Below, piece by piece: positions 8,585 to 63,693 of a DNA stretch of 64,000 bases (positions are counted from its first letter, which is position 1; each line of letters starts with the position of its first letter). The position numbers were made by a program, and so were the translations under genes. The notes under the pieces are model-generated. The model was not told the DNA's origin and searched no databases. It saw nothing but the letters and a program-made list of their open reading frames with translations. Origin of the DNA: Rhizomys pruinosus (taxonomy: Eukaryota > Chordata > Mammalia > Rodentia > Spalacidae); contig VZQC01005577.1 in assembly GCA_009823505.1 (NCBI GenBank), positions 751,950-815,949 of the forward strand, given 5' to 3'.

Positions 8585-8733
8585 GAGACCAAAAGATACA
8601 TGCCACGTTTATTTTGTAACACTAAGAATGGCACAGCTGCGCAGCGGCAGGTGGACAGTACTGATGTTGGATTCAGTCTTTGCACAGCTACGCAGCCGCA
8701 GTTGGACATGAAGTGTGCTGAGGTTGGATTCAG
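8585..8733 (-). other. Cct6b: Cct6b 3' untranslated region
   Basis: From the stop codon the minus strand continues for about 150 bases to a polyadenylation signal, with cleavage expected near 8585-8595. The stretch contains an imperfect tandem duplication that begins at the stop codon. No SINE interrupts it. Confidence 0.7.
8608..8613 (-). terminator. Cct6b: Polyadenylation signal AATAAA of Cct6b
   Basis: TTTATT on the plus strand is AATAAA on the gene strand, 121 bases after the stop codon, in the context tgttacaaaataaacgtgg. It is the first canonical hexamer downstream of the stop. Confidence 0.7.
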
Positions 8734-8742
8734 TCAGTCTTT
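8631..8742 (-). repeat. Two-copy tandem duplication across the Cct6b stop codon and 3'UTR
   Basis: Plus-strand copies 8631-8681 and 8682-8742 both run gcacagct(g/a)cgcagc(g/c)gcag, then (g/t)tggaca, then gttggattcagt and cttt. They differ by substitutions and about 10 bases of insertion. The second copy includes the TGA and the codons for LKD. Confidence 0.8.
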
Positions 8743-8806
8743 GAGAAAAGACATCCCAGCTCGCATAATTTCATCAACCAGAAGAATGTTGCTGGCAATC
8801 ACTGTG
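8734..8806 (-). pseudogene. Cct6b: Cct6b last coding exon, intact, natural stop TGA
   Basis: It reads (C)TVIASNILLVDEIMRAGMSF, then LKD and TGA at 8734-8736. The acceptor is ...gtcctcag. EIMRAGMS is the conserved C-terminal segment of zeta subunits (usual ending SSLKG). The preceding exon supplies TG of the Cys codon, so phase fits. Confidence 0.94.
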
Positions 8807-9309
8807 CTGAGGACAAAGACGAGAGAAAGTCAAGCCTCCCAACCCATGCCTGTCTTTTCCCACCTATCTTTCACGGCCCAGGGCACCTTTTCTTTCAGCT
8901 ATACTGGAGTGAGATTTATGAAACAAAGATATTATAGATGCAAACACCACTCCTTGTGTTGTAACTTCAATTCCTTTGCTGACAAGGTGGAAGCCTAATT
9001 TCTATCTCAACAAAACTGCACTTAATTTTATCATGTCACTTGATTCCCCTGCTCCACAGATGGTACTATTTCAGTAGCATTGTCTTTCCCTTCCCACTCA
9101 AATAAATAATAAGGTCAAGGTTAACTTTTTCTGTAACTTACATGACTACAAATAAAATGCAAAGGCAATTGTAAAATGACAGAAGCTAGTCTTAACAGCT
9201 GATTACACACAGTGTCATACACTTAACTGTTTCAAAACAAAAACATCAAGAAAATTTCGAAGTTATCAGTTATATCCATGAAGAGCCTTCTCTGTCACTA
9301 CCAACTTAC

Positions 9310-9382
9310 CAAGAGTGAAGAAGATGTTTTTTCACACAATAATTATCCCAAACTCCTGCTTCTGCTGCTACCATCGGCTCAC
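9310..9382 (-). pseudogene. Cct6b: Cct6b exon ~13, intact in itself
   Basis: 73 nt, open. It reads (G)[20 protein letters not shown], then LHS and two bases of Cys. The acceptor is gtttttgctttgcag and the donor GTAAGT. The family sequence is [20 protein letters not shown], so conservation is high. WDNY is part of the equatorial core. Confidence 0.94.
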
Positions 9383-9407
9383 CTGCAAAGCAAAAACAAC
9401 CCATTTT

Positions 9408-9513
9408 ATTTGTTTGTTTGTTTGTTTGGTTGGTTTTGCGACAGGGTCTCCCCTATAGCCCCAGCTGGCCTGGGACTCACTATGTTGACCAGGCTGGCCT
9501 TGAACTCACCATT
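9408..9513 (-). repeat. B1 SINE, partial
   Basis: gcgacagggtctcccctata to ttgaactcacc; the distal third is missing where a B2 follows. It lies just outside the acceptor of Cct6b exon ~13. Confidence 0.9.
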
Positions 9514-9515
9514 TT

Positions 9516-9733
9516 GTTTTTTTTTTTTTAAAGATTTTATTTATTGTTTATTTTATGTGTATGAGTGTTATGCCTGCATGTATTTGTGTTCGACATCTAT
9601 GTAGTACCTGTTGAGGCCAGAAGAGGGTGTTGGATCCCAAAGAACTACAGTTATGGACAGCTGTTAGCCACCATGTGGATGCTGGGAATGAACAGAGTGC
9701 TCTTAACTGCTGAGCTACCTCTCCAGCCCCCTA
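9516..9733 (-). repeat. B2 SINE
   Basis: T tail, ttttatgtgtatgagtgtta, then body, ending gctgagctacctctccagcc. Confidence 0.9.
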
Positions 9734-9819
9734 CCCTGGCCCCCGCCACCCAATACCCCATTTCAATACTACAATCTTCATATCTTGTCAGTGTTCATTA
9801 GTGTAGTCTAACGGAATTT

Positions 9820-10690
9820 AATATGTTCCAGAACTACTTGTCTCAAAGTTGCCAATGACTTCTGCGCTGCTGACCACAGCCTTCTGCCTGCGCCCTCCTG
9901 GCTCCTCCGACACCACACTGCCTTGCCTTTTATGCCAGTGGCTCTCCTTCTTCCTGAGCTCCGAATGTTGGAGTGCCCACATGTACTTCCTAGGTGACAA
10001 CTCTCAAAGGTTTGCCTCCAACTTGTATCTCTAGAGCTCCAGATCATATCGGACTGACTAGTGTTCCCAAATACTACAGAAACGTCAAAGCTTGTTCCCT
10101 CAAGCCACAACCAACTCTATCTAGTCTTCTTCAGTAGTTAGTGGCAATTCCAACCTTCCAGTTGTTGAGCTAACTCTTCTCCAGATTGGAGAGTAGCCAG
10201 AATGATCCTTTTAAACATAAGTTGACCGTGTCATACCTCTGCTCAAAACTGATCCATGTTTCACTGCAAAGAGGAAAAAAAACTCAAGTCCTTAGATGAG
10301 CCTGGATGCTGTGTGATGTGACCTGTCTCCTCTGTCAGCCCCTCTTGGCCAGCTCTTCCTTCTCCCTACAACACCCAATCAAGTCCCCTTCATGGCTACC
10401 TTCCTCAGTTTCTTCAACTTCCTCAGCAGATACTTTCCCAGCTTACACAGTACAAACCTTTCTTTGCCACCCTTCAGTACCCTCCTGAATTAGCATTCCT
10501 GATCATCCTTACGTTGCTCTGTTAGTTCTCACCAAGCTGATGGTTTTCTCAGCTGCTAAAGTAACTTACTTGTTAAGTTTGTTGTTTGCCGGCTGTTTTC
10601 TCCCTCTATGTGAGAAGCTCACAGAGGCATATATTTTTTGTTTATTGTGCCCAGTATGATTCTGAATAATAACTATTCTAAGTTTTCTTT
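9820..10690 (+). mobile_element. L2 LINE fossil (3' end)
   Basis: The order of diverged L2 phrases is kept: tatctctagagctccagatc, agccagaatgatccttttaa, tgtcatacctctgctcaaaa, tttgtttattgtgcccagta. Very old, present before rodents diverged. Short open frames inside are remnants of its ORF2. Confidence 0.7.
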
Positions 10691-10701
10691 CAAAAAGTCA
10701 G

Positions 10702-10793
10702 GGGGCAGACTGGAGAGAGAGTTCAGTCAGTAAAATTATTGCTGTGTAAGTATGAGGACCTGAGTTTGATTCCCAGAACGCACATAAAACTTT
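10702..10793 (+). repeat. B3 SINE head, truncated
   Basis: cagactggagagagagttca, ctgagtttgattcccagaac. Confidence 0.65.
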
Positions 10794-10794
10794 T

Positions 10795-11254
10795 TTTAAG
10801 TTAGCATACAAAGTAATGGACTTTACTTTCATACACATGTGTCATATTTTATTCTCATTCCTCTCCCTTCCCAGATGCCCTCTTCCCATATCCCCTGCCC
10901 ATCCTAGAGCTGCTTCATTTTTTGCTCCCAAGAGGTCTGCTTTGTGCTTCCTCTGACATGTATTCCATTACTCTCCTCCCTTGAGTTCTCTCTGCTTATG
11001 ATCTCCTTTCTAGTTTACACACATACATGCACATGCATGCGCGTGCGCGCGCGCACGCGCGCGCGCACACACACACACACTCATAATTCTAAATCTAAGT
11101 TCTGTGTATGAGGAACACATCGAGTTTGTCTTTCTGAGTCTGGCTTATTTTGCCTAACATAATGATTTGTAATTTCATCCACTTTCCTGAAAATGTCATG
11201 ATTTCATTTTTCTTTATGGCTGAATTAAATTTCATTGTGTATATGTAATACATT
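10795..11254 (-). mobile_element. L1 fragment (3' region)
   Basis: Reverse L1: tctgagtctggcttattttg and ttcatccactttcctgaaaa, continuing at 11463-11590 after an inserted SINE. It holds a (gc)/(ca) alternating tract at 11036-11082 able to form Z-DNA. Confidence 0.7.
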
Positions 11255-11462
11255 TTTATTTTTCTTTTATTTATGTTGTATGTGTACACTAGGCTCCCTA
11301 GTCCTTGAGCCTTCAGGGGATTTCTGTCCTGCTCTGGGAGTGACGGGACATAGATGCGTGCCACCACTTCTAGCTTTTTGATGCAGGTTCCGGGAATTGC
11401 ACTCAGGTCATCGGGCTTGCACGACAAGTGCTTTCGTCCACTGAAGCATCTCATTGGCTCCT
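11255..11462 (-). repeat. B4-type SINE inserted in the L1
   Basis: tgtatgtgtacactaggctc, gatgcaggttccgggaattg, ctgaagcatctcattggctc: reverse order of a B4/B3 element, highly diverged. Confidence 0.6.
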
Positions 11463-11590
11463 ACACCACATTTTTCTTTATCCATTCATTTGTTGGTGGG
11501 CAGTTAGGCTGGCTCAAGTTCTCAGTTACTGTGACAAGTGCAGCAATAAACATGGATGCTCAAGTGTCTCTGACAAGGTTGACTCAATAA
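11463..11590 (-). mobile_element. L1 fragment, continuation
   Basis: ttatccattcatttgttggt and gcagcaataaacatggatgc are the reverse of the L1 ORF2 3' flank. Confidence 0.7.
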
Positions 11591-11740
11591 GCACTTCTTA
11601 AACGAATATTCTAAGATGCTCAAAAGTTAACTAGTGTCCCCCACATTTAAGTAAAGTAACCCAATCTACTACTATTTTATTATAATATCTGAGTCACTGA
11701 CAAACAACCTCTATTAAGCAGCTAATTTTTCTGATTCTTT

Positions 11741-11742
11741 GC
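11741..11742 (-). other. Cct6b: GC splice donor of Cct6b exon ~12
   Basis: The exon/intron junction is ACAG|GCAAAG. GC donors are a known minor class and usually have AG before and AAG after, as here, so the site may be functional. A GT to GC mutation cannot be excluded. Confidence 0.6.
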
Positions 11743-11845
11743 CTGTTTTCACATCTATGCCCACAAGTTCTTTTGATTCTGCATGTTGGGTCTGCATTTT
11801 TATCAGTGTTTCCTGCAGGTCATAACCAGAATTCTGAGTAAGAAC
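11743..11845 (-). pseudogene. Cct6b: Cct6b exon ~12, intact, with a GC donor
   Basis: 103 nt, open. It reads [20 protein letters not shown], then [14 protein letters not shown] plus the first base of Gly. The Asp of VGID corresponds to the conserved nucleotide-contacting Asp near the chaperonin C-terminus. The acceptor is ...cttattcataaag. The donor reads ACAG|GCAAAG, a GC-AG type intron unless mutated. Phase agrees with the next exon, which begins with the GT completing Gly. Confidence 0.93.
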
Positions 11846-11924
11846 CTTTATGAATAAGAAACAATAAATATGTGTGAAATACCTTTGCACATATATTTGA
11901 AAATTAAGTATAAAAATAAGGCAC

Positions 11925-12075
11925 TCGGTTGTGGGGTGGCACGCTCCTTTCATGCCAGCACTGGGGAGGAGAGGCAAGTGGATCTCTGTGAGACTGGGGC
12001 CAATATGACATACACAGCAAGTTCCAGGCCAGCTGGGGCTAAATAGTGAAACCTGTCTCAAAAAATAAATAATAA
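11925..12075 (+). repeat. B1 SINE, diverged
   Basis: ggttgtggggtggcacgctc to gaaacctgtctcaaaaaata, 80 bases from Cct6b exon ~12. Confidence 0.8.
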
Positions 12076-12144
12076 AAACAAGGCACTACTATTTAGTCTT
12101 GTGAAAACATAACCATAATAATCATATCCTTTAGACTTCCATTC

Positions 12145-12388
12145 TTTTTTTTTTAATTTTATTTATTTTTGTATGTGTATGAGTGTACTGTCTGCATGAA
12201 GGTTTGTGCACCCGTGTCGTGCAATGCCGCGGAGGTCAGAAGAGGGTCTCGGATTCCCCTGGAACTGGAGTTCTCCTGGAATTGGAGTTACAGACGGTTC
12301 TCAGCCGCCATGTGGGTGCTGGGGATCGAACCCGGGTCCTGTGCAAGAGCAGTCGGTGCTCTTAACCACTAGGCTATCTCTCCAGCCC
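12145..12388 (-). repeat. B2 SINE, full length, young
   Basis: Complete and close to the local consensus. tagacttccattctt flanks both ends (about 12132 and 12389), a clear target-site duplication. Confidence 0.95.
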
Positions 12389-12427
12389 TAGACTTCCATT
12401 CTTAAGCTAAATCAAAGTATCGCTTTA

Positions 12428-12590
12428 GCCGGGCGTGTGGCGCACGCCTTTAATCCTAGCACTTGGGAGGCAGAGGCAGGCGGATCTTTGTGAGTTTGAG
12501 GCCAGCCTGGTCTACAGAGCAAGTTCCAGGACAGCTGGGGCCACAGGGAGACCCTGTCTCGAAAAGACCAAAAAAACACACACACAAAAA
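12428..12590 (+). repeat. B1 SINE, young
   Basis: agccgggcgtgtggcgcacg to gtctcgaaaagaccaaaaaa. Flanks aaagtatcgcttt and aaagtatcccttt resemble a duplicated target. Confidence 0.95.
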
Positions 12591-12699
12591 AAGTATCCCT
12601 TTATTGATTTAGCATTATTTTCTAATTAAACATCTCCCCTATGAATATAACACTAATTTACACCAGAGTTCCACTGCACCCACAACATTTCTTTTCTTC

Positions 12700-12862
12700 C
12701 CTTTTTTTTGTGTTGTTTTGTTTTTATTTTTTGAAACAAAGTCTCCTAGCATAGATTGGTCTCAAGCAAACTCCTTATTTCCATATGTGGCTTGAGCCGA
12801 TCCTCCCGCCTTCCCCTCCCCACTTCCGGAACTACAGGCATGCACCATCACCACACCTAGCT
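12700..12862 (-). repeat. Old B1-like SINE
   Basis: tttgaaacaaagtctcctag, ccacttccggaactacaggc, accatcaccacacctagctt. Confidence 0.6.
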
Positions 12863-12901
12863 TATTTATTCTCTACAAAGAGATTGAAGATGGTTCTTGT
12901 G

Positions 12902-13098
12902 GGGGCTGGAGAGATGGCTCATAAGTGAAAACCACAGGCTGCTTTTGCAGAAGACCCAGGTTTGGTTCCCAGCACCTAGATGACAGCTAACAATCGTCCT
13001 TAACTCCAGTATCCAATATCCTGACTTCTATGGGCATTTCATAACACGGGTGCACCTATATGCATGCAGACAATACACTCATACACATAAAATAAAGA
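12902..13098 (+). repeat. B2 SINE
   Basis: ggggctggagagatggctca to caatacactcatacacataa. Diverged. Confidence 0.9.
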
Positions 13099-13411
13099 TC
13101 TAGTCCCTCTAGCCACATGCCCTCCATTCCTTCCTAAGCACTTGCTAAAGAAAACCAGCGAATCTGCAGCACCTTTGTGGCCCTCAGCTTCACACAGATA
13201 ACCATGACCCGGGACAACTGGGCTAGAGATGCTTATACTCCACACAGGCTAATTTCCAGACTAATGGCTGGTGAAGAACAGGCACTACACTGTACACCAG
13301 TACCACCATTTTGTGTCAACAGCCTCATCATTACTTAATGACTTTGCTGCTTTGGGGAAAGAAAAAATAGATATTTGATTCACAAACAACCCACAAATTA
13401 TGAATAACTAT
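13099..13411. other. Unidentified sequence
   Basis: About 300 bases with no recognised repeat, frame or splice context. Confidence 0.4.
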
Positions 13412-13742
13412 ATTTTATTTTAACAATATTTTACTTATTATTTTATGAATATGAATGTATTGCTTCCCTGAATATGAGAGCCCTCATGTCATATAATACC
13501 CACAGAGGTCAGAAGAGGGCATCAGATTCCCCTGGAACTGGAGTTATCGACCTGGGTACTCTTAGCTGCTGAGCCATCTTTCCAGCCTAAATTATGAATA
13601 ATTTTTTTTTATTTCGGTATGTGTATCAATGTACTGTCTGCATGCAGGTTTGTGCACCCGTGTCGTGCAATGCCGCGGAGGTCAGAAGAGGGTCTCGGAT
13701 TCCCCTGGAACTGGAGTTCTCCTGGAATTGGAGTTTCAGACG
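13412..13742 (-). repeat. Two B2 SINEs in tandem
   Basis: An older copy at 13412-13588 ends gccatctttccagcct. A younger copy at 13602-13742 is cut off at ttggagtttcagacgg, where a URR1-like repeat begins. Confidence 0.85.
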
Positions 13743-14440
13743 GCTCTGTGGGCATATCTGTGGGGCATTTCCTTGATTGTTGAATGATGTGGGAGAGTCC
13801 AGCCCACTTGGGTGGTGCCACCCCTGAGCAGGTAGTCTTTTCTTGTATAAGAAAGCAGACGGAATATGGGCCAGAGGAGCCATGCCAGTAAGCAGCATTC
13901 CTCCGTGGCCTGTAATCCAGGTTCCCAGCCTGGTCTGTACTCAAGGTTCCCGAGGTAGTTTGTACTCCTCCAGGTTCCCGCCCTGGCTCCCCTCAGCGAT
14001 GAACGGTTGTAAGCCAAATAAACCCTTTCCTCCCAAATTAGTTTTCATCCATGTTTTGTGGTTTTTTTTTTTTTTTTTTTTTTGGTCTTTTTGAGACAGG
14101 GTCCTCCCTGTAGCCCCAGATGGCCTGGAACTCAACTATATAGACCAGGCTGGCCTTGAACTTACAGAGATCCACCTGCCTCTGCCTCCCGAGTGCTAGG
14201 ATTAAAGGCCTGCACCACCAGGCCCAGCTTGGTCTGTGTTTTTTGTTGTTGTTTTTGTTTTTGTTTTGAGACAGGGTCTCCCTTTAGTCCCAGCTGGCCT
14301 GGAACTCGTATGTAGAGCCAGGAGGGCTTGAACATCCACTGCATCTGCGCTTCCCGGGTGCTGGGATTAAAGGCAGGTGCCCCCACACCCAGCTGGTCTG
14401 TGTTTTTATCACGGCAATAGAAAGCTAACTAAGATAGCAT
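13743..14440 (+). mobile_element. URR1-like non-autonomous element with two B1 insertions
   Basis: tgggagagtccagcccactt, tgtaagccaaataaaccctt and the end tatcacggcaatagaaagctaac match a rodent-specific repeat I know as URR1 (hAT-Charlie type; name from memory). Two reverse B1s sit in it at 14063-14229 and 14240-14393. Confidence 0.5.
14063..14393 (-). repeat. Two reverse B1 SINEs back to back
   Basis: Each begins ttgagacagggtc and ends ccaccaggcccagctt or ccccacacccagct. Both are followed by ggtctgtgtttt, the probable duplicated target. Confidence 0.9.
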
Positions 14441-14770
14441 TTTATCTAACAGCTTGCAGAATTAGAGGGGTGTTTGTCTGCATTTCCCACATGGTTTTCT
14501 ATTAAATATTTTACATATCCAGCAGAGAAAATATAGGGATAATAGCATAAAGCCCTTTTGGGAACATCATGAAGTAGTCACATTTTCCCCTGCATTTTTT
14601 GCTTCAAAATTTGAAGGAGCTCCAAAAATTCCCTTCAGAAACAGTTCATCGTTGTCTAATCCTAATAAAAATCTCAGAACTTAAACTTTAATTTGATTTT
14701 AGCATATATCTTTATTTTGTTGGCAGTATCCAAAATGCTATTACTTTCAGTTTAATTAGATTTTTTTTAA
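14438..14770. other. Unidentified intron sequence
   Basis: AT-rich, no recognised repeat or coding signal. Confidence 0.4.
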
Positions 14771-14777
14771 GTTTTTA

Positions 14778-15132
14778 ACTTTTTTTTTTTGGGTTTTTTT
14801 TGAGACAGGGTCTGTCTCCCTGTAGCCCCAGCTGGCCTGAAACTCATTGTGTAGACCAGGCTGGCTTTGAACTCACAGAGATCTGCCTGCCTCTGCCTCT
14901 CAAGTACTGGGATTAAAGGCAGGCACCACCATGCCCGGAAAATTTTTAACTTTTTTACATGTATGAGTGTACTGCCTGCATGCGTGTAAGTGCACCTGTG
15001 TTGTGCAATGCCTGCAGAGGTCAGAAGAGGGCATTGCATTCCCCTGGAACTGGAGTTACAGACTGTGGTTCACCACCATGTGTGTGTTCTGTCAGTCAGT
15101 GCTCTTAACCTCTGAGCCATCTCTCCAGCCCC
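14778..15132 (-). repeat. B1 SINE followed by B2 SINE
   Basis: B1 14778-14938 (gagacagggtctgtctccct to accaccatgcccgg), B2 14940-15132 complete from T tail to ctctccagcccc. Confidence 0.9.
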
Positions 15133-15272
15133 CAATGCTATTTATTACTTTTCAATTATGGGAAATGAAGGACTCCAAGCTGTTTAGCATTCTCAAATAC
15201 TGACAGCTTGAATTTGTTTGTTATAGTTTCTAGAAGAGGAGCTATTTTGATAATGTATTTAAAGATTCTGTT

Positions 15273-15821
15273 TTTTTTTTAAATTAGTTTTATTGATGCT
15301 TTGGTCATTCATACATTTTTCCAATTCAGTTAGGCTATGTTTCCCTGCCGCCCCCCCACCCCCACACCATCCCAGATGCATTCTGCCATAACTGTCCTGC
15401 ATCTTTCTCTGGTTTTTTTTTTTTTTCATTTTACTAAAGTGATAATCCATGAGTACAAGCATCCTTCATGCAAAACCTATCTGCAGGCTGTTGTGCCCAA
15501 AACACTACAGCCCCACCATCCAGTGGGGGGTGACAGGTTGTTTTGTTCAATCAAGTTGATCAAATGAGTGTCCAGACTACATTTGCTGTAGTTTTCACCA
15601 TTCACCCCAAATCGCAGCCCTTACATTCTACCACGCCCCCTCTTCCGCATGTTGTTCCCTAGGCTTAGAAAAGGGGGCACAGGTGGATGAGAGGTAAAAC
15701 AGTCCCACTCTCTCTGGAGCTGTTGACTTGGACTCTGTCAATTCTGGTGTTTCCTTTCATGGGCTGACAGTTTGTCCAGGAATAACCTTTCGATCCTGCC
15801 TGGCACGTTATGGCGTCTCCT
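15273..15821 (-). mobile_element. L1 3' end, 5'-truncated, about 550 bp
   Basis: T tail, ttattgatgctttggtcatt, a C-rich tract, then about 450 bases of 3'UTR. Flanking aaagattctgtttt copies at 15259 and 15823 are the target-site duplication, so the unit is a complete insertion of an L1 family that was active in this lineage. Confidence 0.75.
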
Positions 15822-15846
15822 AAAGATTCTGTTTTAAGAACGCAGG

Positions 15847-15959
15847 TTTTTTTTGTTTGTTTGTTTTTTGTCTCCCTGTAGACATTGCTGAAACTTGCTA
15901 TATAGACCAAGCTGGCCTCAATCTCACAGAGATTCACCTGCTTCTGCCACTGCCTCTGC
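15847..15959 (-). repeat. B1 SINE, partial
   Basis: gtctccctgtagacattgct to ctgcttctgccactgcctct. Head missing. Confidence 0.8.
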
Positions 15960-15985
15960 AAATTTTAACATAATAAAGATTACAA

Positions 15986-16246
15986 GGGGCTGGAGAGATG
16001 GCTTAGCAGTTAAGAGCACTGGCTGCTCTTGCAGAGGACCCAGGTTTGAATCCTAGCACCCACATGGAAGCTAAGAACCGTCTTAGGCTGGGCATGGTGG
16101 CACATACCTTTAATCCTAGCACTCAGGAGGCAGAGGCAGAGGCAGGCAGATCTCTGTGAGTTCAAGGCCAGCGTGGTCTACATAGTGAGCTCCAGGCCAG
16201 CTGGGACTAAAGGGAGACCCTGTCTCAAAAAGACAAAAAAAAAAAT
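15986..16246 (+). repeat. Composite SINE copy 1: B2 head joined to full B1
   Basis: B2 positions 1 to about 100 (ggggctggagagatggctta to ctaagaaccgtctta) run directly at 16084/16085 into ggctgggcatggtggcacat, a full B1 with A tail. The B2 3' half is absent. Confidence 0.85.
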
Positions 16247-16332
16247 TACTAATGTGCTAATGCCTTGAGTTAAAACATTATGACAGTGCTAGCAAAGATT
16301 TAAATAATCTATATAAAAATTATTCTCATAAT

Positions 16333-16421
16333 TGGTGCTGGAGAGATGGCCTAGCGGTTAAGAGCCAACCGCTCTTACAGAGGACCGGTTCGATCCCAAG
16401 CACCCACATGGAGGCCAAAAA
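16333..16421 (+). repeat. B2 SINE running into the assembly gap
   Basis: ggtgctggagagatggccta to cacatggaggccaaaaa, then N. Confidence 0.9.
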
Positions 16422-16782
16422 NNNNNNNNNNNNNNNNNNNNNNNNNNNNNNNNNNNNNNNNNNNNNNNNNNNNNNNNNNNNNNNNNNNNNNNNNNNNNNN
16501 NNNNNNNNNNNNNNNNNNNNNNNNNNNNNNNNNNNNNNNNNNNNNNNNNNNNNNNNNNNNNNNNNNNNNNNNNNNNNNNNNNNNNNNNNNNNNNNNNNNN
16601 NNNNNNNNNNNNNNNNNNNNNNNNNNNNNNNNNNNNNNNNNNNNNNNNNNNNNNNNNNNNNNNNNNNNNNNNNNNNNNNNNNNNNNNNNNNNNNNNNNNN
16701 NNNNNNNNNNNNNNNNNNNNNNNNNNNNNNNNNNNNNNNNNNNNNNNNNNNNNNNNNNNNNNNNNNNNNNNNNNNNNNNNNN
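16422..16782. other. Assembly gap (361 N)
   Basis: A run of N begins inside a plus-strand B2 and ends in unidentified sequence. Its true length is unknown. Confidence 1.
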
Positions 16783-17100
16783 TTCCTCCAAGGAGAGAGC
16801 CAATAGCCAATTAGATTTGGGATATACAGGCACATGGCTGCCTCTGCTGCACAGTATTTCCAGGCAGGTGAGGTGTAGCTGGTGCTGACGGTGGAGTCTT
16901 GCTTGACTCAAGGAGACCCGCATTTGCTTTATTGGTTTAGTGGCCCTTGGTAACACTCTCTGGTGTTCCAGAGGCCATCTGTACACTTGCATGTGTGGTC
17001 TCAATACATCTTTCCCATGTTAATGTCAGGTCTTCAGCAGCAGGGCCTTATCACCTCTATTCTTGCAGGTATCCCAGTTTAGAGGCAAGGAGCCTTTACC
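16783..17100. other. Unidentified 318 bases between the gap and exon ~11
   Basis: Not SINE-like. The minus strand has an open frame from 17004 into the gap (MRPHMQVYRWPLEHQRVLPR) and an AATAAA in aaaccaataaagcaaatg. It could be the 3' end of a processed pseudogene or an old LTR; I cannot decide. Confidence 0.35.
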
Positions 17101-17170: not shown

Positions 17171-17304
17171 CTTGGGAATAATAAGTAAGGCATCAGCAAA
17201 AGCCTGAACTCCAAGGCGAGCTCTTCCTTGAATACTGTGCTTGTGATTAACAAGAGCTTCAGCTAGTGCTACTTCTACTGCTCCAGCTCCAGGAACCACA
17301 GAAC
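17171..17304 (-). pseudogene. Cct6b: Cct6b exon ~11 (equatorial domain), intact in itself
   Basis: 134 nt, open. It reads (G)[20 protein letters not shown], then [13 protein letters not shown] and [17 protein letters not shown] is the group II chaperonin nucleotide-pocket motif, equivalent to GGGVA in GroEL. The acceptor is ccctctttgatag and the donor GTACAA is weaker than consensus. GRARLGVQ (Arg, not Gln, after RA) points to CCT6B rather than CCT6A. Confidence 0.94.
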
Positions 17305-36976: not shown

Positions 36977-37140
36977 AGCCGGGCGTGGTGGCGCACACCT
37001 CTAATCCTAGCACTCGGGAGGCAGAGGCAGGCGGATCTTTGTGAGTTCAAGGCCAGCCTGGTCTACAGAGTGAGTTCCAGGACAGCTGGGACTACAGGGA
37101 GACCCTGTCTCGAAAAGACAAAAAAAATAAAAATAAAAAA
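36977..37140 (+). repeat. B1 SINE close to the exon ~10 donor
   Basis: agccgggcgtggtggcgcac to gtctcgaaaagacaaaaaaa. tgtgaggctca repeats on both sides. It ends about 37 bases into the intron. Confidence 0.95.
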
Positions 37141-37177: not shown

Positions 37178-37513
37178 CATCTCCAATGGCATTTTTGACT
37201 GCACGAAGTCCATCTCTTATAGCGTCCTTAATTTGTATAAGATTATGTTTATTTGGTTCTTTGAATATAAGGTGACAGAGCGAGGGTTAACACAGTCTTC
37301 AATAAAAGTGAACTTTTCGGGGCTGGAGAGATGGCCTAGCGGTTAAGAGCACCGACTGCTCTTTCAGAGGACCTGGGTTCAATCCCCAGCACCCACACGG
37401 TGGCTGAGAACTCCAGTTCCAGGGGAATCCACGATACCCTCTTTTGACCTCAGCGGCATTGCACGACACGGGTGCACAAACCTACATGCAGACAGTACAC
37501 TCATACAGATAGA

Positions 37514-37552
<39 letters not shown>

Positions 37553-37597
37553 AATTTAAAAAATTAAAATAAAAATAAAAGTGAACTTTTTTTCACC
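37178..37597 (-). pseudogene. Cct6b: Cct6b exon ~10, interrupted by a B2 SINE and a one-base deletion
   Basis: The ancestral exon starts at 37597 after ...catcatttag with GGT GAA AAA AAG TTC (GEKKF, family GEEKF). After TTCACTTTTATT the frame runs into the SINE tail and meets TAA within four codons. The exon resumes at 37317 with the duplicated target AAGTTCACTTTTATT and reads [13 protein letters not shown]. It then slips one base near 37263-37269 (expected L-x-x-K-E-P) and continues [20 protein letters not shown] and AVKNAIGDG to the donor GTGAGG at 37177. Without the SINE and one target copy the exon is 147 nt, against the 148 needed to keep phase with the next exon. Confidence 0.93.
37318..37573 (+). 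repeat. B2 SINE inside Cct6b exon ~10
   Basis: ggggctggagagatggccta to gcattgcacgacacgggtgc and an (aaat)n tail; a segment of the middle is deleted. The 17-bp direct repeats 37301-37317 and 37574-37590 are identical, and both are coding sequence of the exon (AAAAGTTCACTTTTATT on the gene strand). It resembles the least diverged B2s in the window. Confidence 0.97.
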
Positions 37598-39228: not shown

Positions 39229-39325
39229 TAGTGAATACTCAAATACAAGGCCAGGATGCCCCAAGCAATCTTCATTGAGGTCTTCAAAGGAATTGACAGC
39301 TAGTCCTCCACAGGCAAGAGTGAGT
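39229..39325 (-). pseudogene. Cct6b: Cct6b exon ~9, intact in itself
   Basis: 97 nt. It reads (R)[20 protein letters not shown], then [12 protein letters not shown]. The first base completes the Arg codon split from the previous exon. The acceptor is catataatttcag and the donor GTGAGT. Compare [20 protein letters not shown] in CCT6A; VNSFEDL is the CCT6B-like form. Open throughout, with conserved residues kept. Confidence 0.92.
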
Positions 39326-40639: not shown

Positions 40640-41230
40640 TGGCCAGGAAGCCTGCTGTGCTGGGGTTACAGGCCTCTGCACTGCTGCACTCAGCCTGCAT
40701 GCTGGGCTGCAGGCACACTGCACTGCTGCACTCAGCCCGCAGTGCTGGGCTGCAGGCACACTGCTGCACTCAGCCTGCCGTGCTGGGCTGCAGGCACACT
40801 GCACTGCTGCACTGCTGCACTCAGCCCGAAGTGCTGGGCTGCAGGCACACTGCTGCACTCAGCCTGCGTGCTGGGCTGCAGGCACACTGCACTGCTGCAC
40901 TGCTGCACTCAGCCCGCAGTGCTGGGCTGCAGGCACACTGCTGCACTCAGCCTGCCGTACTGGGCTGCAGGCACACTGCACTGCTGTACTGCTGCACTCG
41001 GCCCACCGTGCTGGGCTACAGGCACACTGCGCTGCTGCACTCAGCCCGCAGTGCTGGGCTACAGGCACACTGCACTGCTGCACTGCTGCACTCAGCCCAC
41101 AGTGCTGGGCTACAGGCACGCTGCACTGCTGCACTGCTGCACTCAGCTCCTACGTGGGCTGTGGCATCTGATCTCAGGTCCTCATGTTTGCACATCAAGC
41201 ACTTAACAAGCTGAGCCATTTCCCCATCCC
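40640..41230 (-). repeat. Minisatellite of ten units inside a B4 SINE
   Basis: Core unit gctgggctgcaggcacactg, cactgctgcactcagcc, in long (two ctgcactgctgc) and short versions, 46-58 bp, from 40660 to 41150. The right flank tacgtgggctgtggcatctg ... gagccatttccccatccc is the remaining end of a reverse B4, and the first unit, gctggggttacaggc, matches the B4/B1 segment that normally stands there. All frames on both strands are open, which explains long spurious ORFs of 154-186 codons. Confidence 0.9.
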
Positions 41231-42498: not shown

Positions 42499-42581
42499 CT
42501 TTCCATATTTCTTCTTTTTGCTCTGCGAAGAGCTATTATGTCATGTTTTGCAAGCATTTCTAAGGAAAATGGATCAATGCC
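42499..42581 (-). pseudogene. Cct6b: Cct6b exon ~8, intact in itself
   Basis: 83 nt, phase 0 in and phase 2 out. It reads [20 protein letters not shown] followed by AKRRNMER. The acceptor is ttgattgcag and the donor GTAAGT matches consensus. It belongs to the apical to intermediate transition of the zeta subunit; family sequence is GIDPFSLDSLAKHGIVALRR. No stop or frameshift. It lies 19.4 kb from the preceding exon because of L1 and ERV insertions. Confidence 0.92.
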
Positions 42582-51441: not shown

Positions 51442-51864
51442 TTGACCCCTTACCAAGTCTTCAATATTACACATCTACATGGTGAACTTGGTGACATTAT
51501 TAAAAGTCCCTGGTCGCAACAGTTTACTAACTACACCTTGACCCTTGGTTCTCAAGTTGTCTCCTTTAACTCTATCCACCCCAAGGTCATAGCCTTTGAT
51601 ACTAGCTTTGTTTCACAGGTGTGGTCTAAGCTAAAGTCCATTTCTGACCCTGCTACGTTGGTCCCCTGGGGCGTCCTCTGCCTCCTGGCCCTGCTCTGCC
51701 TTTTTCTCTTCAGGCGTCTGTTTCACTTTGCCTGCAGCCAATGCCAGGTCCCCAAAACAATGGCCCAGGTCCTCTCAGCAATGGACAGTAGGAATTCGGC
51801 ATGCACCCCTCCTGATGAGGTGATTTGCATCTGGCTCTCATCCATCCACAATTCACAGGAATGA
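51442..51864 (+). pseudogene. ERV env-like 3' fragment (transmembrane subunit end)
   Basis: 140 codons, open, ending TGA. Residues 1-70 look like a membrane-proximal ectodomain with two N-glycosylation sites (N8, N30). Residues 73-90 are a hydrophobic membrane span followed by Arg-Arg, then a Cys-containing cytoplasmic tail. The position 200 bases before the 3' LTR is where a transmembrane envelope gene ends. The Met is internal, with no fusion peptide or surface unit in frame, so this is a remnant. The last ~45 residues may run past the original stop. Confidence 0.55.
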
Positions 51865-54763: not shown

Positions 54764-55610
54764 ACACTCGGGAGGCAGAGGCAGGTGGATTTCTGTGAGT
54801 TCAAGGCCACCTTGGTCTACAGAGTGAGTTCCAGGCCAGCTGGGGCTACAGGGAGAGACCTTGTCTCAAAAAGACCCCTGAAAAATAAATAAAATCCACT
54901 AAATATTCAAATCTAAATAATCATGCCTTGTTATTTTTTTTTTTCTTTTTGAGACAGTGTCACCCTATAGCCCCATCTGGCCTGGAACTTGCTATGTAGA
55001 ACATGCTGGCCTCAAACTCACAGAGATCCACCTGCCTCTGCCTCCCACGTGCTGGGATTATAGGCATGTGCAGCCAGGCCTGGCTCAATCTGTTGTTTAT
55101 TCTTTAAAATATAAATGGCTATTCATGGGGCTGGAGAGATGGCTTAGTGGTTAAGAGTATTGACTGCTCTTGCAGAAGACCCAGAATCAATTCCCAGCAA
55201 CCATACTGTGGCTAACAACTGTCTGTAACTCCAGTTCCAGGGGAATCTGATGCCCTCTTTTGACTTCTAATGACATTGCATGGCATGGGTGCACTTACAC
55301 ACATGCAGGCAACACACTTATACACATAAACTTAAATTAAAATTATTAAAAAATTGGGGCTGGAGAGATAGCCTAGCGGTTAAGAGCACCGACGCTCTTG
55401 CAGAGGACCCGGGTTCGATCCCCAGCACCCACATGGCGGCTAAGAACCGTCTGTAACTCCAATTCCAGGAGAACTCCAGTTCCAGGGGAATCTGAGACCC
55501 TCTTCTGACCTCCGCGGCATTGCACGACACGGGTGCACAGACCTGCANTGCAGAACTGCAAGGTACATTGCATTCATGCACATACAAAAGATAAATAAAT
55601 AAAAAAAAAA
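54764..55610. repeat. SINE cluster: B1+, B1-, B2+, B2+
   Basis: B1 54764-54890 (head missing); reverse B1 54940-55085; B2 55125-55350; young B2 55357-55610 with the ambiguous base and a scrambled tail. Confidence 0.88.
55548..55548. other. Single ambiguous base in a B2 tail
   Basis: An N in acctgcantgcag. The next 40 bases of the B2 are disordered compared with other copies, so this is likely a poor assembly join. Confidence 0.8.
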
Positions 55611-56230
55611 TTAAAAAGAAAAATTATTAAAAAAAGGGAGTTTTCCATGACAAAGTGGCTAGTTTAGCTCAAAAGTCTAATTACACAAAGGCTTTTTGCA
55701 AGACAGCCATCATGTGTTGTGTGGGTGAAACAGAAGAGCGAGGTTGAAACTATTAAAATTACCACGCAAAAATGGATAATACAAAAGATGATCCAACTCA
55801 AAGATCAAACATTTAATAAAATTATTGAAATTTTTAAAACACCGGGAACCACTTTCCAACATTTATGTTTGGTTTTGGTTTTCAAATGGATTTTGCCATA
55901 TGATGTTTGATATACATTTGGAAGGCAGAGAAAGCAGGCATGATCCGTGTGGGTTGCCAAGCCAGCCTGGTCTACATAGTGAGCTCCAGGTCAGCTGGAG
56001 CTATATTGAGATCTTGTCTCAAATAGACCCCACCCCCCAAAATTCAAATGGGTATAAAATTAAATAAATAATATAAATAAAATAAGATAAATAAAATGTT
56101 GATATGCAATTGTGCTCTATGTGCACATATGTGCGATGTGAGTGCAGGTGCCCTTGTAGGCCTCCAGGCATGAGATTCCCTGTAGCTAGAGTCATAGGCA
56201 GCTGTGAGCCATCCAAAGTTGATGATGGGT
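55611..56230. other. Unidentified sequence with old SINE remnants
   Basis: B1 remnant 55918-56035 (gaaagcaggcatgatccgtg, gagctccaggtcagctggag). B2-like reverse remnant 56095-56230. The rest is unassigned. Confidence 0.5.
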
Positions 56231-59200
56231 GTACAATCTTCTGGGGAACAGTAAATACACGGTCAGTCTCTGCAATAGGAGCATACTGTATGGTGAAGGT
56301 TTTGAAAGACAAGTGTGGAGAACCCTTAGATTGTCCACCAAAGCTGTAAGATCATTCAGAGCCAATGTCATCCAGTATGCAAGCGGGGGGCACTGTTTTT
56401 GGACCTTGTCCATTTAGAGGCTTAAAAGTGTGGCCTGCTGCTTAGCCCTAGTGGCAATACTCAACGTCTACATTATTGGCGGGCGAGCGGCTTTACGGAG
56501 GGTTTAACAAGCGCCTGCGGTTGACGTCTACACGTCCGACCACCTCAGTCTCTGCATTTATCACCTCTGTGCTCTAAATTGAGAGATGTGGACCCTCGCA
56601 TGCCTGTCCAGCTCCTATGCCACCAACTCCTTTCTGTCACAATGGTACTCTATATTCCTCTTGGAGACTCGTTCAAATCAAAGGCTCAAATAGAAACTCA
56701 TTCCCTTTAATATATGGTGTCACTAGCTTTGGTCATATTGGTTGTTATTTGTATCACCAGCAACAGATAAACATGTGCCTACGTTATCAGTCACAGTTAT
56801 TTTATGAGTACCAGAGAAGGGTCGGAGTACTAGTTGGGCTGTGAAAAACACTGAGCAGCGCATGAGAGACCCCAAGGTGTTTTCGCGCAGAAATGTTAGG
56901 GATGGGCCACTCTTGGAACTTTGGGCTCAGAAAAGCTTACTATGTGACAACCTGACTAACTCTGAAGAGGCTAAGGGTGGCACATTCTAAATAGGGAAGA
57001 ACCCGGAAGAAAGCTATCTGAGCAAAAACAGTGATGAGAAAAATGTATTTCCAGTGGAAAATAAAGACTTGGGCAGCAAATGGGATATTTTGATAAAAAG
57101 TCTGGCAGCAGTTTGCCCACAGCCCAGGTGCTTGCCTGATGCTGGGTTGGGGGGCAGTGGATTGGTGTCTTTGGTGGATGATATTGCAAGACAGCCTAAT
57201 GTAGGGAAAGAATACTAGGTTGGGCGTAGCGGCTTTTTAGATATAGAAGAATATTATTAACAGATCGGTGGACAAGTCGAAAAAAACAAGAACCCAAATA
57301 ATGAGCATAATGGGAGACATGCAGGGATATAATATTGACAGTTCTTGGATTCTTTGGAGAAACCTGTTTGGCAACTAGGAAGGATATTAAAATGGAGTTA
57401 TTGCGCGCTAAGGCATTAGTAAAGGAGAGGCTCTCCTGAACGAGTATAGGAGACATAAAAGGCATATAAGGAGAGGCCTCGGGATTTACAACTAAACAAC
57501 AAGAATCATACAGGCCAGGAGTCCACAGCGAAGACATAACAAACGACAAGAGTTGGCGGCCACGCCTTTAAATCCTAGTACTCGGGAGGGCAGAGGCAGG
57601 GCAGATCTTTGAGTTCAAACCTAGCCTGGACTTTACTACAGATAATTGTGGAGTTCAGGACAGGCGGAGGTGCGCTACAGCGGGAGACCCTGTCTTGTAA
57701 AAAAAAAAAAACTAAAACAACCGAACAAAAATGAACAACCAAAAAAAAAAAAAAAAAAGAAAGAGAAAAGATAAAAATAAAGATAATAACTTTCTCAGGT
57801 ACTTGCAAGTGGGACAAGGGGCGCAAGGCAGAGCCCAGCTAATCCTCCAACTTTTCAAATATGATTGTTAAAAAACTGAAAAGCATTTCTGCTCAACAAA
57901 TTACACAGGAAGACAAGGAGAGAAAAAATTGCAATGTGCGTTGATGACATTTAGCCAGGGTACATCCCACAAATGACGTGTAGCAAGACGTCTCGAAAAT
58001 TGACTGCATGGCGGATCATTTTGCAGCCTGTGCTGCTGCTATTAGGAGGCAGTGGAAGATTTGCAAGAGTGAAGGGTCATCAGTTCTTCCTACAAGGTTT
58101 CAGAGAGCTGCCAAGGTCAGGGTTTCGAGGCTGAACAAGCAGTTGTCCCTGCAGGTGGAAAGTAGCCCTGATAGGGCCATGCGTGAAGGCTTGTGAATGT
58201 GAAGCCATGGGTTTGGCAGCGGAGGACCCCAAGAAGACATGTCGATGGTCTATGCCAGAGACCTGGTTAGATATTTGTCAAGGAGGGCTGCATACAGGTA
58301 GTGGTACCGGCCTAAGAAAAAAGATGTATGTTACATGCAAAGCTGGAAGAGCCTTTAGCCATCTAAGCTCTTTGTAAGTCAAGTCCCAGAAGTCGCAACA
58401 TGGAGCCTACTGGACTTGGTTTTTGCACTGATGGTTTTCGGGTCTAGTTTTTTGGTCCAGGATTCCTGTCTCCGCCACGTATGCCCTCTATTCGCTCCCG
58501 TTATGTTTTGGGCAGGGGAAACTAGCTTGAATGTGTGTGTAAGTTCAGTTCCATCTGATTAATCAATGTGGTCAGTGATAAGGTTTAATTCTGTACTTTT
58601 ATTTTACTAGTGATAGAGCTTACAAGTATAATTATACTTGTCTCTGGCAAGTCTCAGAAGAGGACCTTCTGGCCTATGGCGTAGAAGCACTTATTAGAGT
58701 CAACCCAGATTGTGCTACATGTGCGCAAATAGAGCGATACTAGAGGTCACTATATGCAGAGCACACCATTTTGGGAGAGTCTAAATGCATTTTACATGTA
58801 TAATGTCAGGACCCTTTATGGCCAGGGGATGGATGTTAATGATAGGTACGTTTGGTTAGAAGTAAAATGGAAGTAATTCCCCCAAGTTTAAAGGCATGTT
58901 ATAAAAGCATGTATGGTGCATATCAATTATTTGTAACCACCAGGCAATCTGTTATTGGTTTACATGAATCTGAATAAAATGGGTGGTGGCCACTTTTTTG
59001 TAAAGTCTTCTAAGAAGATTTGGGCCATGCCTGGTATAAGATGTGAGGGAAGTAACATATGATTGGGGCAGGGACTTCGCAAGTGAGGTTTTTTTATATA
59101 TTTTCTTTGTCTTTTTTCTTGTGTTTATTGCCGCACCATTCGTTTTGCATGAATGTATTAGCTTATCTGCTATTTGCACAAAGGTTACTGTATGCTGTGC

Positions 59201-60047
59201 ACCTCATTTAACGGTATGCATGCCAGCAGGTGAGAAAGGAGTACAAGAGACCTTTGGGAGGGCGTCGAATGACACCCCGGGAACTGGATTCTCCTTGGAA
59301 TTGGGAGTCCTAAGAACGGTAAAATCTCGGCCGCCATGTAGGGTGCTGGGTATTGAACCCCAGGTCACTTTTACTTGACAAGAACAAAGCTGTCTTCGCG
59401 CTTCCTTATAAGCCTGAATCTTCTCTTGTTGAACAAAGTAGGCCATTCGCTCCTAGCCCATCTAAGCCTTCCATGAGTTAACAGAAGTAGCGCCTATTTT
59501 GCGTACCTTTTCTAGCAGTCGGCCACTCCTCGATGGATTTTCCTGGCTATTGCTCTTTTGGCGAGATCGTGACCTTTACTCTACATTGCTGCTCGCCTAA
59601 GCTTCTCTAAGCCGAACACAATTAGATTCCCGCCACAAGGACTCTAATTCCCTGGAAACCGTCAATTCTTTTCCACTTCAAAGGCTGTCAAAATTAAACA
59701 TTTCCTCCTGATATATTAAGTATCAGCGTACCCAAAACAACCATGGCTTTGGTTCATGGTTTTGTAATGTTTGAGTGTATACAACTTATAATGCGCTCGT
59801 GAACACGGTACAACACCTAGTGGACTAATACTAGTATAGATTCATTTGATATTATTATGAACTTTACTCAACCAACTAATGCCTCATCATCAATACAATA
59901 AACCATTTTTATACTGGAAGATTGAGGACCCCATACTTTCCCCTGCACGGACTTGTAGTTGAGGCAATAGAATGCAGAACATAGCACAGTGCTTAAAAAA
60001 GGTAAGAACCAAGTACATTGATCTGCAAGGTCAAATGTGCCAGCGAG

Positions 60048-60082
<35 letters not shown>

Positions 60083-62020
60083 GTTTATTTTTTTTTTAAT
60101 GGGAAGTTTCCTAGACCCAATGTGCCCGCCCATTTACTAGACCCACACACTAGCCCACCAGAGACATCATGTCATGACATAGCCAACTATTCCAATTCGT
60201 CGTTCTTCATCTAACATTTTCCTCCTTCCTCTGTCTTTCAATCATATTTACAAATTCTCTCAAAATAGGTAACATGTTAGATCGGGTTTTGTATGAAAGA
60301 GGCAAGAAGTTTCATCTTGTTTCAGTCCAGTATTTATAGACTTGTTTGGTTGTTTTTGTGTTGTTTCCAATATGCATTACAACCAATCCTGCTTCATCCA
60401 ATCAGGAACAAAAAACAAAGCGGTCTCGGGTGGCCCTACACGCACCAAAGAAATAAACTTACAACTAGGTTAACTTTATCAACGTGCGTTGTTTCTGGAT
60501 CTGGTTATGAGCATACAGAACTTTAAGGTCCATACGAGCTTATATGCATTCCTACTAGCTCCAGCCTATGTATGTTTCTCTAGGCAAAGCTTAGGCATTC
60601 TGGAATTGTGTGCTCCTTACCTCTTTAAATCAGTTGGCGCAACTGGCATAGGAACTCCACATTGGTAAGCATGGGGTTACCACATTGTCTTGTACTTCCC
60701 CTTACCTTACTTCGTCAGTAGGGGCATTGGGGCGTGGGTTCCAGCTCACTTGCTAATTCTGGAACGAATAGTACGTCAGGAAAGGCTAGACCAAGAGAGA
60801 AAAAAAACGACTCTCATGATTGCGGTTCCGGCAATAAAGCAATCTCGAAATCGTCCCTGGTGGTGGAGGATTCCCTGGTAAGCATTGTAACAACTAGTTA
60901 TAAGAGGTTACCTACCTAGCCACTAAGAGAAGGGGCTGAGGGACTTCTGGTCGTAGGTGTGGCGCACTTAAACAGGTTTGGCCTAAGTTTACTATTCCAA
61001 GTACTTTGTGCACGAAGAGGGGTTACTCCTACTCCTGTGTGGCCTCCACTTTCACTCAGCGCCACGTACGAGACATTTTAGAACAACCCACCAGCATAGG
61101 TGGATATGGAGAGTTAATCTCCATGTACAATTATCAATACAATTTCCAGCAGTTACCTCCCACGCAGCGTCGCTCTTGTTGGCCCAACTAGCGTGAAGAA
61201 CACTAAGTCTAAGAACCATACTACCTAGTAATGTAAAGGGGAAATTTCGTGCAAAATCTCTTAGTTTTCTATCTCTAAATGAGAAATTATGCCCGGGCAA
61301 TTCCTGGGTGTGAAGAGCCTATGCTTTTTCTCTTGGGTTGCTTATTAAATTGATACTTTGGAGCAGAGCCCAGGCCACCTATCTTTGAGACGATCAGTGC
61401 CATCCCTTAGGGGGCAACTGGTTGGGAACGCTGGGGAGAGCTTATGCTACTTCTCTGAAAGCTCTCAAGGAACCCAAACACAGTTAGAAGCTAACAATTT
61501 TCACTTTCAACGTATAGAGGGCCGTTTACGCGCTTAGGGCATAGATTTGCTACCCTGCTCAGTGCCGATAAATATATTTCACATGTATCACAAGGGGAGC
61601 TGACTTTTTCCTCCCAGTTGATGGACTTTGACCTTTAGGACTGAAATAAACCGCACACATTTCACGCATGGAAGTTGCTCATATTGTCGTCAGAATACTA
61701 CCAAAGACGAGGTGGTGCAAACGCTTATGTTTCGGCACAGTGGAGATCTCTCCAGCCCCCAGAGAGCCTCCCAACACAAAGGAATAATAGTAAAAGGCCG
61801 GAGGCTGCTCTATTATTGTCCTCTAAAGTTTGGATTACATTATATTAGAATACTTCCACCAAGTGGGTCGAGAAAGAACTGCCCTTGGAAGTGGCCATAG
61901 AGAGACCCTGCTGCACGGAGGAAACAGTGGACGGTCTCAACTTACTATGGGAGATGAAGGGATGCTTGGTACTGAAGACCACATAATCAATGAGCAAGAT
62001 ACGTTACATATTACATTAAG
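56231..62020. other. Tract of probable low-accuracy gap-fill sequence
   Basis: SINE density falls sharply. The copies that can be seen (B1 57548-57720, reverse B2 59090-59375) are riddled with one-base insertions and deletions. Homopolymer artefacts occur (60048-60098: T run joined to A run to T run). The many small open frames are not supported. It also contains a 20-bp palindrome at 58622-58641. Confidence 0.6.
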
Positions 62021-62031
62021 CTCTGTCTTAC

Positions 62032-62387
62032 CTTTTGATTGATAACAAATCCTTTATTGGATTCAGCACAGACTTTCTGTTTTAGGTCTATTATCTTCTA
62101 TACTCTATCTTCAATAAATTTTCTTTCAGCTTTTACCAATTTCTTTTTCTCTTGTGCAGGCTATAAAGAAACAGTGCCGGGCGATGGTGACACAGCCTTA
62201 ATCCTAGCACTTTGAGGAGGGAGGCAGGCGGATTCTTTGTGAGTTCAAGGCCAGCCGGTCTACGAGTGGAGTTCCTGACGCTGGGGCTTTACAGGGGACC
62301 CTGTTCTCAAAAAGACCAAAAAAAAAAAAAAAAAAAAAAAAAGAAAAGAAAAGTAAAATGAATGAAAGAAAACCAGAGCTCACTTCT
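62032..62387 (-). pseudogene. Cct6b: Cct6b exon ~7, split by a B1 SINE and carrying a TAG stop
   Basis: The exon starts at 62387 after ...ttaatctttag with A GAA GTG AGC TCT GGT TTT (T-EVSSGF, family EVNSGFFYK). It is then interrupted by an inverted B1 and resumes at about 62174, reading KLVKAERKFIEDRV*KIIDL and on through QKVCAESNKGFVINQK to the donor GTAAGA. TAG at 62098-62100 replaces the usual Gln or Lys codon. One Val codon of FVVINQ is missing. The junction after the B1 also appears to have lost bases relative to FFYKSA. The B1 itself shows many small indels, so single-base differences here may be sequencing errors; the insertion is harder to explain that way. Confidence 0.85.
62176..62360 (+). 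repeat. B1 SINE inside Cct6b exon ~7
   Basis: gccgggcgatggtgacacag to ctgttctcaaaaagacc and a 35-base A tail. Flanks ataaagaaacag (62163) and atgaaagaaaaccag (62363) are an imperfect target-site duplication of coding sequence. Indels in the body match the error pattern of the tract to the left. Confidence 0.88.
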
Positions 62388-62412
62388 CTAAAGATTAATA
62401 AGAACAAATTAT

Positions 62413-62740
62413 TACACTAGGTATGGTGACACATACCTATAATCCCAGAAGTCAGGAGGCTGAAGCAAGAGGTTCTACAAGTTTGAAGCTACCAAGCAAT
62501 ATAAGACCCTTCCTCAAAAAACCAAAAAAGACTGGATGGATGGTGCCACACCTTTAATCCAAGCACTTGTGGATAGCAGAGGCAGGCAGGTGTCTATGAT
62601 TTCAAGGCCAGCTTGGTCTACAAGAAGAGTCCAGGATAGCTGGAGCTACAGAGAAGAAAACCCGGCCTTGGTCGTCAAAAGACCAGAAAGGAGAAGAAAA
62701 AAGAAAAAAGAAAGAAAGAAAGAAAGAAGGAAAGAAAGGG
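62413..62740 (+). repeat. Old B1, then B1 with (aaag)n tail
   Basis: 62413-62520 (ctaggtatggtgacacatac); 62530-62692 (gactggatggatggtgccac), then gaaagaaagaaagaaag. Confidence 0.8.
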
Positions 62741-62910
62741 AGGATGGCCTCATAGGATAGCGCAGAAGTAGGATTACCCAAAAAGGCCAACTAAAACCAA
62801 ATTAAAGCAAATATAGAGTCCTCCTCTGAAGTTCAAGCAAAGGACGGGTCCACCAGTCGAAAAGACACAGAATACCCACCTCACCTGCAAGGAAATACTG
62901 TACAGCAGAG

Positions 62911-62966
62911 AGAAGGAAGGAAGGAAGGAAGGAAGGAAGGAAGGAAGGAAGGAAGGAAGGAAGGCA
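62911..62966. repeat. (aagg)n microsatellite
   Basis: About thirteen units of gaag/aagg. Reverse-frame ORFs here are repeat translations. Confidence 0.98.
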
Positions 62967-63091
62967 AACCCAAAAGCCAAAAGCCAAAAGCAAGCAAAAA
63001 AGTTAGTAAAGGGGATGGGGGAGAGAGGAGTCTATCTGAAGCATTTGGTAATAAGAAAGAGATTTAAAAAGGCTTTTGGAAAAAAGTAAGA

Positions 63092-63300
63092 GCTGGGCAC
63101 TGTAGCTCATACTTGTAATCCCAATACTCAGAAAACTGAGACAGGAGGGTTGCTGCAAGTCAGAGGCCATCCTGGACTAGAGATTGAAACCCTGTCTCCA
63201 AAGAGGAAGAGAGACAGAAGAGAGGGAGAGGGAGCGGTGCAGAGATAGGGAGAGGGGGATGAAACGAGAGAAAAGGGTGTATGGAGGGAGGATGGGAGAA
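63092..63300 (+). repeat. Old B1 with purine-rich tail
   Basis: agctgggcactgtagctcat to accctgtctcc, then a (ga)-rich tract to 63300. Confidence 0.75.
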
Positions 63301-63305
63301 GATCT

Positions 63306-63510
63306 GGGGCTAGAGAGATCGCTCAGCACTTAAGAGCGTGTACTGCTTTTGCAGAGGATTGAGCTCTGCTCCCAGCACCCACATCAGCAGCTCACAACTG
63401 CCTGAAACCCAAATACCAGAAGGATCTGATACCTTTGGCCTCTGGTGGCCCCTGCACTCATGTGGACATACCTATACACAGACACAAACCCATATAAATA
63501 ATTTTAAAAT
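63306..63510 (+). repeat. B3 SINE
   Basis: ggggctagagagatcgctca, gagctctgctcccagcaccc, to acatacctatacacagacac, 75 bases from exon ~6. Confidence 0.85.
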
Positions 63511-63580
63511 AATAGAAATAGTTTTTAAAAGGGAAGGAAAAATGTAAAGAGTTTCAAAAGTTACAAAAACAAACTGACAT

Positions 63581-63582
63581 AT
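63581..63582 (-). other. Cct6b: Disabled splice donor of Cct6b exon ~6
   Basis: Gene-strand sequence is GAAAAAAC|ATATGTCAG. Restoring one G at the first intron base would give a normal donor. The change is G to A in an ancestral C-G pair, so a CpG transition. Confidence 0.7.
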
Positions 63583-63693
63583 GTTTTTTCATATTCTAGT
63601 GATACACTGCAGATAAGGATAAATGCATCTTGCACTTGCTTCTTCATACTTGGATGGCGGGCACCATGGTCCAAAACTAATCCTCAGATCAAC
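63583..63693 (-). pseudogene. Cct6b: Cct6b exon ~6 (apical domain), with stop codon and lost donor
   Basis: 111 nt. It reads [13 protein letters not shown] then [10 protein letters not shown] and ends SLEYEKT with the last codon split 2+1, as expected for CCT6 (family [18 protein letters not shown]). The acceptor is ...tgttttaatag. An in-frame TGA at 63684-63686 stands where the family has Arg; CGA to TGA is a single CpG transition. The exon ends ...GAA AAA AC followed by ATATGTCAG, so the donor GT reads AT. A GT four bases further on would shift the frame. The flanking sequence looks clean, so I favour real mutations over read errors. Confidence 0.87.

Follow-up and report, generated by a model that had tools for sequence, protein, structure and literature searches.

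The window analysed here, the whole 64,000-nucleotide stretch of contig VZQC01005577.1 (positions 751,950 to 815,949), carries on its minus strand exons 6-14 of Cct6b, spliced and collinear between positions 63693 and 8734 (Table 1). CCT6B is a testis-specific protein-folding gene that encodes the zeta-2 subunit of the chaperonin TRiC. The exons were read one by one together with their borders, and a tblastn search with human CCT6A, a query that matches PDB chain 6qb8_z over its full length, recovered CCT6 codons 206-531 in order on the same strand. Exon numbers were assigned against the 14-exon gene as it is described in PMC8750304 and PMC2846930; exons 1-5 lie outside the window, whose end falls about 300 base pairs (bp) upstream of exon 6. 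AG is found at all nine acceptors and GT at six of the eight donors, the remaining two being GC (exon 12) and AT (exon 6). The one exon border compared with a known gene, the start of exon 6, agrees with c.615 of human CCT6B. The terminal exon ends in a normal stop followed downstream by AATAAA. A sequence-only reading of this DNA had proposed a spliced and broken Cct6b in which six other exons stay perfectly in phase, a description well supported by the lesions, by the splice anatomy and by the closeness to CCT6B: exons 8, 9, 11, 12, 13 and 14 are open and in phase and exons 6, 7 and 10 are broken (3/9). A processed copy was considered and ruled out, as introns and splice sites are present. 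The GC donor of exon 12 could belong to a working GC-AG intron or be a further lesion.

The two premature stops called by the sequence-only reading at 63684 and 62098 are both present, the first in exon 6 and the second in exon 7. The loss of the exon 6 donor, also claimed, is likewise found, and the place of that site is fixed because the limits of the exon are defined by the human variant c.615-2A>G, which marks its start (PMC8750304), and by Microtus isoform P0210, which is without exactly this 37-codon stretch and preserves the frame. Two short interspersed elements (SINEs) had been reported within coding exons and both were located, a B1 in exon 7 and a B2 in exon 10. The B2 is flanked by a target-site duplication matching at 17/17 bp, and a further B1 lying about 50 bp beyond exon 10 (36978-37127) shows no insertions or deletions (indels) and 9/143 substitutions, so the exon 10 area reads cleanly. 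This exon also has a one-base loss near 37268, and the in-frame codon loss that had been noted is the absence of a valine codon from exon 7 near 62046. Taken as assembled, five lesions are well supported: the two stops, the altered donor of exon 6 and, in exon 10, both the B2 and the loss of one base. Together such lesions would rule out a full-length CCT6B.

Table 1. Exons, lesions and associated features of the Cct6b locus in the window
Feature	Position	Strand	Remark
Exon 6	63583..63693	-	111 bp, codons 206-242, split codons at ends
Premature TGA in exon 6	63684..63686	-	codon 208; Arg in most aligned relatives
Exon 6 donor	63581..63582	-	reads AT
Exon 7	62032..62387	-	split by B1
B1 SINE and A-tail in exon 7	62176..62342	+	indel-rich, end approximate
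Probable 3' target-site duplicate of B1	62365..62376	+	imperfect, by eye; partner 62165-62174
Premature TAG in exon 7	62098..62100	-	codon 272; Gln in 15/15 aligned rodent CCT6B
Missing valine codon in exon 7	62042..62047	-	codon 290 or 291
Exon 8	42499..42581	-	intact
Exon 9	39229..39325	-	intact
Exon 10	37178..37597	-	split by B2
B2 SINE and A-rich tail in exon 10	37319..37573	+	
5' target-site duplicate of B2	37301..37317	+	17 bp, identical to 37574-37590
3' target-site duplicate of B2	37574..37590	+	17 bp
One-base loss in exon 10	37264..37270	-	about codon 375
Exon 11	17171..17304	-	intact
Exon 12	11743..11845	-	open; GC donor at 11742-11741
Exon 13	9310..9382	-	intact
Exon 14	8734..8806	-	normal stop
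AATAAA polyadenylation signal	8608..8613	-	

The B1 copies of the window were utilized as rulers of sequence quality, with the 28 of 40 hits that were long enough being compared with their consensus. In the exon 7 B1 we count 14 indel events against 5 substitutions; the other 27 copies have 0-6 indels each, 53 in total, and 373 substitutions. Under stiffer gap penalties the exon 7 copy still shows 11-14 indels against a maximum of 5-6 elsewhere, the excess holding across four gap penalties. Many of its indels gain or lose a single base within short runs, and a copy rich in indels and poor in substitutions has the pattern of uncorrected long-read sequence, unlike that of SINE ageing. On the strength of this pattern positions 62150-62345 are probably uncorrected sequence. 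Given such an error-rich stretch we did not count a second one-base loss, which adjoins the B1 in exon 7, and the target-site duplicate of this B1, a poor one by eye (10 versus 12 bases), proves little; its insertion in exon 7 is nevertheless probably real. An initial non-CpG divergence of 0.239 for the exon 7 B1, obtained with a first consensus, was discarded as pairwise alignment traced the figure to indels. An older B1 at about 62540-62655 likewise has several indels.

These comparisons bear on what the sequence-only reading had said of error. Its caution that small lesions could be read errors was apt, the exon 7 one-base loss being probably one, and of the two one-base deletions that answer to its claim of one only that in exon 10 stands. 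Its argument that SINEs are not easily read errors applies to the B2 with its clean duplication. Where six or more lesions had been counted, five hold outside the error-rich stretch. One uncorrected stretch can thus inflate the count of lesions by which a gene appears inactivated.

Among the best 120 of 1384 matches to the joined translation the top-ranked are CCT6B (zeta-2) and not CCT6A, the nearest being those of Cricetulus (88%), Microtus (87%), Arvicanthis (86%), Rattus (85%) and Mus (85%). We built a tree from the window and 22 chosen relatives (19 CCT6B and 3 CCT6A, no spalacid sequence among them), limited to the stretch that the window covers, in which CCT6B and the window separate from CCT6A with a support of 100. 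The window branches as the sister of a group of eight sequences from mouse, rat, hamster, vole, deer mouse and gerbil, with supports of 93 for the eight muroids without the window and 98 for the eight and the window without Jaculus. This position, in a tree built with a broken gene, matches that expected of Spalacidae, outside the other Muroidea and inside Dipodidae. In the alignment the window also retains residues of other rodents that are replaced in the eight muroids, such as the Met of RRNMERL and the Arg of NPRSV, and this favours the outside placement because decay would not restore such residues. As far as sequence can place it, the locus probably belongs to a muroid just outside the group of mouse, rat, hamster, vole and gerbil, most likely a spalacid, a family name that we infer and that covers blind mole-rats, zokors and bamboo rats.

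Constraint was gauged at 169 positions with an invariance of 98% or more across 203 other aligned sequences (hits of 450-580 residues, with one plant protein excluded). At these sites the window has 7 changes, the eight other muroid CCT6B 0-2, Castor 4 and Jaculus 10. In relative-rate counts the window is the more changed sequence in 24/24 comparisons, which are non-independent, with p<0.05 in 4/24. A protein rate so little raised suggests that the loss was probably late and that the protein was probably maintained along most of the branch. The exon 10 B2 differs from the consensus of its 10 nearest copies at 12 non-CpG and 3 CpG positions of 200. Dating by SINE divergence was dropped, the exon 7 B1 being unusable and the age of the B2 being at odds with the coding decay.

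Our preferred reading, to which we give a probability of roughly 0.7, is that this is Cct6b at its original, intron-bearing locus, now a unitary pseudogene in a spalacid-like rodent. Its coding sequence would have stayed constrained through most of the rodent's lineage and then been inactivated by the stops in exons 6 and 7, by the failure of the exon 6 donor and by the B2 and frameshift in exon 10, the loss being tolerated as CCT6A would take the CCT6 place in the TRiC of male germ cells. A number of observations weigh against this reading. The error-rich stretch at 62150-62345 lies within the locus itself. The CCT6B of Jaculus, presumed functional, has more changes at near-invariant sites than the window, and significant acceleration of the protein is absent from most of the relative-rate comparisons. 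By its divergence the B2 appears older than would fit the coding decay, and some of its differences may be subfamily markers. The same tree joins Peromyscus to mice and rats (93) and sets the gerbil (Psammomys) outside hamster, vole and mouse (83), placements that conflict with accepted relationships, and as known species are misplaced at similar support the value of 93 separating the window from the eight muroids should not be taken as strong. Finally, the higher number of abnormal sperm in mouse Cct6b knockouts indicates that the gene does have some effect (PMC8176918).

It is also conceivable, if unlikely, that this locus arose by segmental duplication and has decayed, with an intact Cct6b elsewhere in the same genome. 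The window shows one locus only and the protein database was clustered at 90% identity, such that the 30-member Cricetulus cluster could conceal an intact CCT6B of a spalacid; however PMC2846930 traces every recognisable CCT6-class pseudogene in human, mouse and rat to CCT6A, with decayed CCT6B duplicates unseen there, and no spalacid name occurs among the best 120 of 1384 or among 120 of 1099 matches, in which many entries carry no species name, which counts weakly in the same direction. We consider it likely that no intact Cct6b exists elsewhere in the genome and that the lineage has lost the subunit completely. An intact gene in the animal, with lesions that stem from errors of assembly or reads, is quite improbable, although the uncorrected long-read pattern of the exon 7 B1, with its 14 indel events and 5 substitutions, is what such errors would produce and the window contains a 361-base gap of Ns (16422-16782) and a lone N (55548). 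An element with a clean 17/17 duplication is no read error, the two stops and the changed donor appear to be substitutions, and indels are absent from the 111 bp of exon 6 and limited to the one whole-codon loss in the remaining 126 bp of exon 7. It is very improbable that the full-length protein alone was lost and transcription kept, yielding a non-coding testis RNA or, from exons 1-5, an N-terminal fragment, as the intact polyadenylation signal, most splice sites and the barely raised protein rate might suggest, since the exon 10 frameshift besides the B2 means that skipping of exon 6 or 7 gives no frame open to the end.

The wider claim under the unitary pseudogene reading, that a whole lineage of rodents, probably all or some of Spalacidae, is naturally without the testis zeta subunit of TRiC and builds its sperm with a CCT6A-only chaperonin, stands in our view at even odds. 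If true it would represent a natural knockout in which the mammalian CCT6A/CCT6B duplication is dispensable for male fertility in the wild. It would illustrate that a duplicate can be dropped outside the laboratory and allow one to ask which sperm trait follows.

Three mouse studies are compatible with such a loss. Lu et al. deleted 44,827 bases and obtained 102 pups in 11 litters from 3 males, with a mean litter as printed of 8.5 versus 10.2 in wild type and no line reported as significantly different (PMC6735960). Yang et al. report normal fertility in their knockouts together with fewer normal sperm, bending at the nuclear base and slightly reduced Cct4 and Cct7 (PMC8176918). In the knockouts of Cazin et al. 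fertility and sperm were normal, and the homozygous CCT6B splice variant of an infertile man was judged most likely not causal (PMC8750304). The loss of CCT6B in these animals is thus, as may be the case here, compatible with male fertility; the knockouts are laboratory-engineered whereas the loss in the window is apparently natural, with accumulated lesions. Replacement by CCT6A would be compatible with all three fertile knockouts and with the suggestion that the major role in spermatogenesis may fall to CCT6A (PMC10761714). A natural loss of Cct6b is an ordinary kind of event that fits the knockouts and, in their light, comes as no great surprise.

CCT6A and CCT6B are both described as present in every mammal examined in PMC2846930. 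The CCT6A-derived pseudogenes of that study resemble the window in being decayed CCT6-class sequence and differ in that the window holds CCT6B at an intron-bearing locus. Nearer to our case are the 139 unitary pseudogenes given for the blind mole-rat Spalax galili in PMC8851862, which like the present locus concern the loss of single-copy genes in a subterranean rodent; that paper discusses Trim17, a gene with high expression in mouse testis and a fertile mouse knockout. Its main text mentions neither CCT6B nor CCT, and as the supplementary lists may name it the loss of Cct6b may already be in print there. Among the papers listed in searches on CCT6B and gene loss, no title or abstract opening reports a natural CCT6B loss.

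Several other features of the window were noted. An Rfam scan gave 0 matches at gathering scores. The stretch 63805-64000, about 110 bp upstream of exon 6 where intron is expected, is GC-rich (GC 0.69, with 19 CpG in 63801-64000) and by eye resembles part of the first exon of another gene or a CpG island. A 140-residue open frame at 51442-51864 resembles, by eye, the terminal part of a retroviral envelope gene and has no Pfam match at E 0.01. At 40679-41147 lies a tandem array whose units measure about 38, 51 and 89 bases and in which three plus-strand frames are open, these being probably chance frames in a repeat.

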